A program made the position numbers and the translations under genes. Positions 2,882 to 39,546 of a stretch of 64,000 nt of DNA are shown here, one piece after another. The notes beneath the pieces are model-generated. The model was not told where the DNA came from and made no database searches. It was given only the letters and a program-made list of their open reading frames with translations. Within the stretch, counting starts at the first letter, position 1; each line of letters opens with the position of its first letter. Origin of the DNA: Thioalkalivibrio halophilus (GTDB lineage: Bacteria; Pseudomonadota; Gammaproteobacteria; Ectothiorhodospirales; Ectothiorhodospiraceae); NCBI RefSeq assembly GCF_001995255.1, contig NZ_MUZR01000002.1, forward strand, positions 62,001 to 126,000, given 5' to 3'.

Positions 2882-3154
2882 TTAAGGAAACACTGATCAA
2901 TGTACACGCTCGCGCTCGAGTCGCTTTTGCGTGCGAACAAGGCGCGGCGACCGCCGTGCAGTCATTCTGCACAAGGGAGCCGCAACGCCGTGCGCGCACA
3001 AAAGCGGCCGAGTCCCTACGGGGTTGGGCCCCGGGTTCCCCGATCCGGCGTTGCGCCGCTTGCGGGTAGAACCACTACCCGCTGCACGACGCGCCTTGTC
3101 TCGGAAAACCCGGGGCACCAACGCGAGCGTGTACATTGATCAGTGTTTCCTTAA
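2882..3154. repeat. MITE-like palindromic element, copy 1
   Basis: This ~273-bp block is bounded by near-perfect inverted repeats of over 30 bp (outer sequence AAGGAAACACTGATCAATGT at each end, continuing into ACACGCTCGCG). The interior carries smaller hairpins, including GTGCAG-TCATT-CTGCAC and GCGGGTAG-AACCA-CTACCCGC (3062-3082). Most of the interior is shared with 39172-39440. Open frames on both strands start in the terminal repeats and look fortuitous. No transposase lies inside. The block fills most of the gap between the PEP-CTERM terminator and the gene at 3259; the remaining ~100 bases hold nothing recognisable. Confidence 0.85.
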
Positions 3155-18273: not shown

Positions 18274-18299
18274 AGGGAAACACTGATCAGTGTTTCCCT
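18274..18299. repeat. Collapsed MITE-like element (terminal repeats only)
   Basis: AGGGAAACACTGA is followed directly by its reverse complement, a perfect 26-bp palindrome. It equals the two outer ends of the ~270-bp element joined at the shared TGATCA, with the whole interior missing. Confidence 0.8.
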
Positions 18300-37953: not shown

Positions 37954-39189
37954 TCAGGCGTGCAGGGCCTCGCGCGGCAGCGCCGAGGAAATCATCCAGG
38001 CGGCAAAGACAAACAGCGTGGAGGCCACAAGCGCCCCCTCCAGCCCCCAGAGCATGAAGATGGCACCGGAGGCGACGGTCCCGACCAGACGCCCCCCGGC
38101 ATTGGCCATGTAGTAGAAGCCAACCTTCATCGCCACGCGGTCGGCCTCGGCGTAGTCGAGGATCAGGAAGGAGTGCACGGCCGAGTTGATGGCGAACACG
38201 ACGCCGAACAGGCCCAGCCCGACCATCAGCACCCACGCCGGGTCCAGGCCGGCCTCCAGGCCGATCACGATGGCCAGCGGCAGCAGCATGAGAACGAACG
38301 CCCACAGACGCGCGGTCAGCCCGGTCGGATGCACCCCGCCCCGGCCCAGCAGGCGCGGCACCGACGCCTGCACGATGCCGTAACCGATCACCCACAGTGC
38401 CAGAAACGCCCCCACCTGCATGTGGTTCCAGTCCAGGGTCGCGCTCAGGAACACCGGCAGCGCGACCACGAACCAGACATCGCGCGCGCCAAACAGGAAA
38501 AAGCGCGCGGCCGACAGCACGTTGATCGTGCTGGAGTTGGAGAACATCCGGGTGAACTTCGGCTTGCCGCCGACCTTGCCAAGGCCACGCGGCAGCCCGA
38601 CCACCGAGAACAGCATCACCAAGGCGAGCATCCCGGCCAGGACCACCAGCGCCAGCTGGAATCCGATCGAGTACAGCAGCGCCCCACCGACGAAGAAACC
38701 GACCCCCTTCAGCGCGTTCTTGGAGCCGGTGAGCACCGCGACCCAGCGAAACAGACGCCCTTCGCCGTCGCCGGCGACCAGCTTCACGCCGGATTTCGCG
38801 CTCATCTTGTTCAGGTCCTTGGCGATCCCCGACAGGGCCTGCGCGAACATCACGTACGCCACCCCCAGCCAGGCCTCGGGCACCGTGAGCATCAACAGGG
38901 CCGCTACCTGCAACAGCGTCCCGCCGATCATCGTGATGTTCACCCCCAGCCGCGCGGCCAGCCAGCCACCGGTCAGGTTGGTGACCACCCCGAACAGCTC
39001 GTAGAACAGGAACAGGAAGGCGATCTCCAGCGGGCTGTAGCCCAGCTGGTGGAAGAACAGCACGACCAGCATGCGGATCGCGCCGTCGGTGATGGTGAAC
39101 GCCCAGTAGTTCGCGGTGATGCGCGCGTAGGCGCCCACGCCGAGTACCGGCGAAGCGTCAGAATCGGGACCAGGGAAACACTGATTCAT
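37954..39189 (-). CDS. arsJ: ArsJ-type organoarsenical efflux MFS transporter
   Basis: The ~411-residue protein has 12 hydrophobic spans and ArsJ-type stretches: YWAFTITDGAIRMLVVLFFH, QLGYSPLEIAFLFLFYELFG, ALSGIAKDLNKMSAKSGVKL and LTGSKNALKGVGFFVGGALL. ArsJ exports 1-arseno-3-phosphoglycerate, which is made by a partner GAPDH. No GAPDH gene is present next to it, unusual for arsJ. The first ~6 codons from the ATG at 39189 lie within the terminal repeat of the MITE-like element; a downstream GTG in VLGVGAYARITANYW is an alternative start. The element is therefore directly at, or in, its 5' end. Confidence 0.82.
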   Translation of the reverse strand: MNQCFPGPDSDASPVLGVGAYARITANYWAFTITDGAIRMLVVLFFHQLGYSPLEIAFLFLFYELFGVVTNLTGGWLAARLGVNITMIGGTLLQVAALLMLTVPEAWLGVAYVMFAQALSGIAKDLNKMSAKSGVKLVAGDGEGRLFRWVAVLTGSKNALKGVGFFVGGALLYSIGFQLALVVLAGMLALVMLFSVVGLPRGLGKVGGKPKFTRMFSNSSTINVLSAARFFLFGARDVWFVVALPVFLSATLDWNHMQVGAFLALWVIGYGIVQASVPRLLGRGGVHPTGLTARLWAFVLMLLPLAIVIGLEAGLDPAWVLMVGLGLFGVVFAINSAVHSFLILDYAEADRVAMKVGFYYMANAGGRLVGTVASGAIFMLWGLEGALVASTLFVFAAWMISSALPREALHA

Positions 39190-39440
39190 GTACACGCTCG
39201 CGCTCGAGTCGCTTTTGCGTGCGAACAAGGCGCGGCGACCGCCATGCAGTCATTCTGCACAAGGCAGCCGCAACGCCGTGCGCGCGCCAAAGCGGCCGAG
39301 CCCCTTCGGGGTTGGCACCCCGGGTTCCCCGATCCTGCGTTGCGGCCCTTGCCGGTAGAACCACTACCGGCTGCGCACCGCGCCTTGTCCGGGAAACCCG
39401 GGGTGCCAACGCGAGCGTGTACATGGATCAGTGTTTCCCT
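39172..39440. repeat. MITE-like palindromic element, copy 2
   Basis: This 269-bp block has ends AGGGAAACACTGATTCATGT and the reverse complement at the other side (one or two mismatches). The interior matches 2882-3154 with scattered changes, including the hairpin GCCGGTAG-AACCA-CTACCGGC at 39351-39371, in which both members of a base pair changed relative to copy 1. The remaining 39441-39546 shows no gene. Confidence 0.88.
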
Positions 39441-39546
39441 GGGGGCCGCCTTGCTCATCGCGGCGGGGAGTGTAGAGAAAAAGCATGAACGCCGCATTAC
39501 GCCACGGCGGGGCAACGCGCACCCCGCCGTGGCCGTCGACTCATGC

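Follow-up and report, generated by a model that had tools for sequence, protein, structure and literature searches.

Compensatory base changes are routinely taken as strong proof of a functional RNA fold. A short repeat in Thioalkalivibrio halophilus, two copies of which lie in the stretch of DNA analysed here (the window, 64,000 nucleotides), raises the question of whether such changes may come about in another way. The first-pass annotation described these copies as a structured, MITE-like element of about 270 bp from no described family, and took a hairpin pair with both members changed to mean that the fold, and not only the sequence, is maintained. What is this element, how does it move, and does selection on a fold account for its paired changes?

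Table 1. Coordinates of the element, its parts and related features in the window.
Feature	Coordinates	Strand	Basis or remark
Target-site duplication TTAA, left	2882–2885	.	Sequence, flank comparison
Mobile element copy 1, 265 bp	2886–3150	+	Copy comparison
Terminal stem, left arm, 28 pairs	2886–2913	+	Outer 17 bp = left end of the partner IS
Arm A	2914–3013	+	Fold
Arm A apex hairpin GTGCAG-TCATT-CTGCAC	2956–2972	+	Least variable of the regions compared
Small central hairpin, CCCC TTC GGGG or longer loop, length-variable between copies	3014–3022	+	Alignment
Arm B	3023–3122	+	Fold
Arm B apex hairpin GCGGGTAG-AACCA-CTACCCGC	3062–3082	+	
Terminal stem, right arm	3123–3150	+	
Target-site duplication TTAA, right	3151–3154	.	
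22-bp mini-palindrome GGAAACACTGATCAGTGTTTCC, two joined ends	18276–18297	.	
Mobile element copy 2, 265 bp	39174–39438	+	CCAG at 39170–39173, CTGG at 39439–39442

Both copies are 265 bp in length, and chance is excluded as the source of their likeness by eight full-length copies in the same genome and by the z-scores of the fold. The terminal inverted repeat, annotated as longer than 30 bp, consists in copy 1 of 29 bp that belong to the element; the excess is the palindromic TTAA of the target. In copy 2 the inverted repeat has one mismatch within its first 17 bp. The two annotated hairpins are both present at the arm apices, and a G-C pair of the arm B hairpin is C-G in copy 2. The RNA fold calculated for copy 1 with its TTAA has an energy of -184.9 kcal/mol, as compared with a mean of -105.0 for shuffled sequences (z -16.6; 0 of 200 shuffles as good), and its DNA fold has a z-score of -14.6; the calculated fold is very stable for both strands. 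In an alignment of 94 full-length copies from 13 genomes (alignment A1; a later pool has 159 copies from 16 genomes), the consensus fold is made up of a 28-pair terminal stem, arms A and B, and, between the arms, a middle hairpin whose length varies; 97.0% of cells are paired over 107 pairs and 97.9% over the 28 pairs of the terminal stem. As modeled, a single strand can fold end to end into a cloverleaf. Variation is lower in arm A than in the terminal repeats and almost absent from the arm A apex hairpin (diversity 0.056 at arm A pairs and 0.018 at the apex, versus 0.078–0.120 in the terminal stem). Four copies (L008, L119, L138, and L139) have additional hairpin-like inserts of about 15–16 bases within the arms.

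The T. halophilus genome (2.87 Mb, 97 contigs) has 47 matches to the element, of which eight, including the query, are full-length and 86–100% identical; across the 159 pooled copies, length ranges from 259 to 310 bp. Of 41 genomes of the order that were searched, 25 belong to the genus, and 15 of these have the element; it was found in none of the other 16, which are from different genera of the same family. Of the 25 genus genomes among 40 relatives in an earlier search, 13 had it, one of which (G018) lies outside the 41-genome set. That search also gave a single weak match beyond the genus (in G038, E 4.8e-4), which was not recovered when seven copies were compared with that locus by short words at E 0.01. 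A plasmid search with the element gave no match. Across the class, 21 of 369 genomes have the 17-base end with no more than one mismatch, and some of its instances in other genera are part of those genera's own elements. At three loci in two other genera (G096 L183 and G039 L180 and L194), facing pairs of ends similar to GGGAAACACTGATCAAT lie about 120–155 bp apart and are possibly other short elements. A stop-free frame (median 88 codons) runs through much of the element, as G+C-rich sequence allows, and element lengths fall into all three classes modulo 3 (18, 74, and 67 of 159 copies). We consider the element very probably a non-autonomous MITE.

The sites of insertion carry the marks of transposition. 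Exact 4-bp repeats, mostly CTAG or TTAA, flank 34 of 94 copies, and exact repeats of 4 or 5 bp flank 59 of 159; the bases adjoining the element are complementary in 92 of 94. The target duplication is of YTAR type and 4–5 bp in length. Seven T. halophilus copies were queried in five relatives, which yielded two clean empty sites, both in G012. One reads GACGTCTGAG-CCCGAG, with CTGAG duplicated at the filled site, and the other reads GGCGGACTAG-CCGAC, with CTAG duplicated and its right copy mutated. Both empty sites are located at apparent stop codons of upstream frames, as read by eye. The L007 site is filled in G012 as well; at the L002 site, G012 lacks the element and the junction is too diverged to read; and the remaining three copies had no flank match in the five relatives. 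Where CTAG target repeats are unequal, the commonest variants are CCAG on the left and CTGG on the right. Very-short-patch repair (Vsr) is a candidate cause of decay from CTAG to CCAG or CTGG. Vsr is present in 4 of 15 genomes, and this cause went unsupported, with CCAG at 10 of 30 CTAG-or-CCAG half-sites in genomes that have Vsr and at 16 of 65 in the others, a group that includes G018, which lay outside the Vsr search.

The first-pass annotation had recommended looking for a full-length relative with a transposase, and a search for the end pattern led to a partner element. The element at L176 in G022 is 1.2 kb in length and encodes a transposase of 328 residues, and its left end (GGAAACACTGATCAATG) is identical to the outer 17 bases of the MITE. 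The transposase scores 310 bits against NCBIfam NF033581 (IS5 family; cut-off 140) and exceeds the cut-offs of Pfam PF01609 and PF05598. Two-ended copies of this partner, 1.17–1.22 kb in length, number eight in the genus and two in another genus, and have ends such as GGAAACRCTGATCAATGG and GGAAACACTGATTTAATC. Their 4-bp flanking repeats are equal at seven of ten copies (CTAG, TTAA, CTAA, TAAG, and GTAG); two others have unequal repeats and one starts at a contig end. IS5-family elements have a YTAR-type 4-bp target, outside which the TAAG and GTAG repeats fall. A match to the transposase occurs in 6 of 30 genus genomes, all six of which carry the MITE. The transposase is full-length in four of the 30 (G022, G392, G021, and G012) and nearly so in G010, and T. 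halophilus itself has a match of 91 residues only. A short-word comparison found no match between the interiors of the MITE and the partner; what matched in partner loci was either an end, a MITE copy or fragment next to the IS, or short. Shared ends and targets form the basis of the link between IS and MITE, and on these sequence grounds the MITE is most likely moved in trans by IS5-family transposases.

The CTAG and TTAA flanks would also suit a MITE of the IS630/Tc1 type, as these elements duplicate a TA within CTAG. Such an origin is highly improbable, however, since PF13358 (the DDE_3 transposase family) is detected in 2 of 13 MITE-bearing genomes and over cut-off in one, CTGAG is duplicated at one of the empty sites, and it is the IS5-family partner that shares the MITE end. 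The better of the PF13358 loci had no matching end pair within the stretch checked, and an IS630/Tc1 partner was rejected. The annotation of the locus as MITE-like and structured is thereby borne out by its copy number, inverted ends, target duplications, empty sites, and partner IS.

Several known systems resemble the element in part. Prokaryotic MITEs of the IS5 family, for example in archaea, are described in the portions of PMC3852290 considered here as short, with inverted repeats of 15–17 bp and an IS5-family partner. The present element is similar in its shortness, inverted repeats, and IS5-family partner, and differs from what is described there in its matched ends of 28–29 bp, its cloverleaf-capable strand, and its measured end-to-end covariation. 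The ERIC, NEMIS, RUP, and Nezha elements are 70–300 bp in length with inverted ends of 15–30 bp and strong secondary structure, and are mobilised by transposases that recognise their ends, according to the sections of PMC3733652 used here. These sections also report GTAG REPs, of 20–40 bp like other REPs, from Thioalkalivibrio; the arm B hairpin contains GTAG, and the element differs from the REPs so described in its 259–310 bp, 28-bp inverted ends, and target duplication. Its length and inverted ends rule out a REP/RAYT unit. With ERIC, NEMIS, RUP, and Nezha, as they appear in the same source, the element shares size class, inverted ends, and structure; sequences were compared through Rfam searches. 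The four are not known to resemble the element in sequence.

By comparison with Rfam families and, by description, with published MITEs, the family is new, as had been annotated. An Rfam search of the window returned two tRNAs only at the gathering score, with sub-threshold hits only to the element. Among the open-literature papers listed on Thioalkalivibrio repeats and IS, IS5 MITEs, end homogenisation, and single-stranded MITE intermediates, none describes the family in its title or the opening of its abstract.

Compensatory changes extend well beyond the two copies of the window. In the 94-copy alignment, 31 of 107 pairs have changes on both sides, as compared with 10.9 in shuffles and 10–15 with slid partners. 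We placed changes by parsimony on a FastTree tree of these copies and counted double changes, with both members of a pair changed on the same branch. The terminal stem has 54 doubles versus 7.6 expected (0 of 1000 permutations as high), arm B has 14 versus 4.5, and arm A has 3 versus 4.2. Double and single changes on terminal branches number 41 and 81 in the terminal stem, 3 and 119 in arm A, and 11 and 110 in arm B. The hairpin change cited in the first-pass annotation is mostly one old two-state block. Of the 94 copies, 57 have G-C at this pair, 26 have C-G, and 2 have A-U, and in 9 it is unpaired. As C-G occurs together with a block of linked changes in arm B, most of the C-G copies appear to go back to a single event; further events are seen in the A-U copies and in two copies where the neighbouring pair has changed from G-C to C-G.

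A structured RNA, or a host regulator, with its fold under selection is the usual reading of such covariation. The very stable fold of both strands and the nearly invariant arm A apex would be in keeping with it, as would the few same-site doubles in arm B described below. G-U cells outnumber A-C cells in the terminal stem (65 versus 29) and in arm A (36 versus 20; 19 versus 1 at non-CpG pairs), but the bias is reversed in arm B (43 versus 102), and the overall count at pairs not G-U by default is 145 versus 152. Changes on the tree away from Watson-Crick pairs led 125 times to G-U and 98 times to A-C. As neither strand is consistently favoured, a one-strand RNA reading by this measure was rejected. 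The Rfam hits all lie below gathering score, arm A shows no compensatory excess, and the terminal stem, as seen next, shows no compensation in place, which leaves a selected RNA fold very unlikely.

Copies that occupy the same site in different genomes provide a control for the covariation. Defined by flank similarity on both sides, there are 30 such pairs in the same orientation and one inverted pair (L058 and L091). Among all 30, double and single changes number 0 and 42 in the terminal stem, 1 and 83 in arm A, and 7 and 60 in arm B. The terminal stems of 22 disjoint same-site pairs have 0 doubles and 33 singles. The number of doubles predicted from different-site pairs of equal total divergence is 18.8 (sd 3.6, minimum 7 in 5000 draws), or 17.3 if only Watson-Crick-to-Watson-Crick doubles are counted (minimum 3 in 20,000 draws). 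Without the four most variable pairs, 0 are observed versus 6.8 predicted (32 of 20,000 draws as low); for the outer 12 pairs alone the deficit is weak (0 versus 3.6; 663 of 20,000 draws as low). For the same 22 pairs, arm A has 0 doubles versus 3.1 predicted, and arm B has 6 versus 9.2, all at pairs 179 and 231.

The difference is also seen between closely related copies. The closest disjoint different-site pairs (37 pairs with at most 12 differences) have 21 Watson-Crick-to-Watson-Crick doubles and 51 singles. The corresponding counts are 0 and 33 for all same-site changes (Fisher p 1.5e-4) and 0 and 13 for the 14 same-site pairs that fall within the 12-difference limit (Fisher p 0.03). Among the 73 different-site pairs whose interiors differ at no more than four positions, 55 have a matched double in the ends, and as many as four; these 73 pairs, which are not independent of one another, together have 100 doubles, 96 of them matched, and 116 singles. 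The six same-site pairs within this limit have 0 doubles and 8 singles. Disjoint sets lessen the non-independence of different-site pairs, and do not lessen interior conversion, which could make old copies look recent and so weakens the inference that doubles arise fast. Such conversion between copies, or local deletion, is what the same-site interior differences point to: the arm B apex block or the length of the middle hairpin differs at one site in L046/L251, L055/L236, and L120/L138, and in L047/L108 and L121/L129, with the arm B block differing at three same-site locations. At the site shared by L058 (G010) and L091 (G020), the element lies in opposite orientations, either by inversion in place or through two independent insertions.

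The lack of doubles in place, against 18.8 predicted, indicates that the ends become matched in connection with moving. It disfavours selection for a fold in place, as would act on a host RNA or regulator, and favours a process linked to mobility. The annotated claim of a maintained fold is thus upheld in that the covariation is real and lies mainly in the terminal stem, and fails in that arm A has no excess and no covariation was seen in terminal stems at orthologous sites. Strong covariation with none in place in the terminal stem is a caution for covariation searches in repeats. Foldback elements and the concerted evolution of terminal repeats in eukaryotes are comparable, the ends of one copy being alike beyond the ends of other copies. 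The present case is bacterial and includes a same-site control, in which the match of the terminal stem was not restored in place.

The data ask for an end-matching process that is absent, or rare, in place. Palindrome repair in place, in which template switching during replication of a standing hairpin would rewrite one arm from the other, is therefore quite improbable, with 0 of 33 terminal-stem changes double at the disjoint same-site pairs. Template switching is reported to perfect hairpins and is described for quasi-palindromes and RNA stems in the parts of PMC8794818 drawn on here. It would suit the double transversions, which make up 19 of 48 Watson-Crick-to-Watson-Crick doubles in the terminal stem, and either it or recombination between ends could give the L058/L091 inversion; the six same-site doubles in arm B could be counted in its favour too, with block conversion as their likelier cause.

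The explanation that we favour, with a probability of roughly 0.6, is that the element is a MITE moved by IS5-family transposases, with its ends matched by copying at the move. At or around transposition, the two ends would pair, either in a snap-back single strand or abutted in a circle or cruciform; one end would be rewritten from the other, and the new insertion would start with matched ends. The step itself, copying of one end onto the other as the element moves, we put forward tentatively, at a little under even chance. Three observations favour copying: nearly identical copies of the partner lack matching ends, doubles are frequent where two copies have almost the same interior, and a change of end type affects both sides. 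The first was made in G392, in which three partner copies are 0–1 differences apart over 1200 bp; their two ends, GGAAACGC and GGAAACAC, differ from each other at position 7 and beyond position 12. The transposase thus seems not to need matched ends.

These observations also bear on selection at the mobility step, by which elements with unpaired ends would transpose poorly, matched lineages would spread, and doubles would accumulate slowly, with ends that pair and nothing copied. Strong coupling between insertions with none seen in place would be expected, and divergence among insertions, taken relative to change in place, is lower for the interior than for the ends (all different-site over in-place divergence, 1.5–2.8 in the interior and about 4.5 in the terminal stem). 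Near-identical partner copies with unmatched ends at three sites of one genome are nonetheless hard to reconcile with such selection, as are up to four matched doubles at four or fewer interior differences, given two independent mutations per pair, and the swaps of end type on both sides. Constraint further predicts lower divergence in the terminal stem, which between insertions is instead more diverged (0.11–0.13) than arm A and paired arm B (0.05–0.08; unpaired arm B, 0.12). We consider selection without copying unlikely.

Two predictions of copying were not borne out. Doubles are not clustered along the terminal stem (8 versus 7.8 expected), which gives no sign that tracts are copied, with the possible exception of the second end type. 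If insertions start matched, older copies should have more mismatches. Copies whose target repeats are exact have 1.17 mismatches and those whose repeats are inexact have 1.35, which is not a significant difference (p 0.31); there is no trend by interior divergence, and the mismatch count was negative as an age clock.

The second end type is found in 5 of 159 copies (L201, L247, L248, L261, and L268), in which variant ends lie on both sides of the same interior. These ends are in sum 17–20 positions from the consensus, and the interiors have 8–23 differences; the variant ends match perfectly over 29 bp in three copies and have mismatches in two. L261 starts with GGAGACGCTGATTTAATC, 18 bases that also form the right end of the L202 partner, and the ends of the other four copies are similar to those of L261. 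As the main-type end is the left end of the partner, the interior seems, from these matches, to carry either two left-type or two right-type partner ends.

A more specific version of copying, which we regard as unlikely, is that the element moves as a folded single strand, of DNA or a DNA copy of RNA. The terminal stem would serve as one double-stranded transposon end for the IS5-family transposase, and with mismatches corrected during the move the ends of each new insertion would be identical. The main type would then have two copies of the partner's left end, and the minor type two of its right end. More broadly, the same-site result offers a handle on how a bacterial MITE moves, as the two ends of a copy seem to interact at that step. 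Its many copies, the roughly two dozen orthologous sites, and a partner IS with unlike ends make the family a natural system for testing.

Leftovers of the element are abundant in the T. halophilus genome, which has 59 end instances. Among the 54 that were read, 16 are in the eight full copies, 4 in long pieces, 10 in pieces of 21–50 bp, and 24 in pieces of 12–19 bp; the last outnumber the longer pieces, and comprise 4 from two 22-bp mini-palindromes and 2 cut by contig ends. Several solo ends of 12–19 bp (e.g., L069, L073, and L075–L081) are located just past a stop codon or before a start codon, as read by eye. As a host motif these solo ends fared poorly, the 13-mer being intact in none of the seven G012 alignments that span such sites. 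The many 12–19 bp leftovers and the 22-bp mini-palindromes appear to be deletion products of the hairpin, and leftovers that stop a little within the base of the hairpin would be consistent with its deletion by a jump across it during replication. The mini-palindrome in the window is probably a remnant after interior deletion. In it and in a second one (G000:C41:833-854, L083), two element ends are joined at GATC, and L072 and L074 have similar palindromic forms of 22–25 bp.
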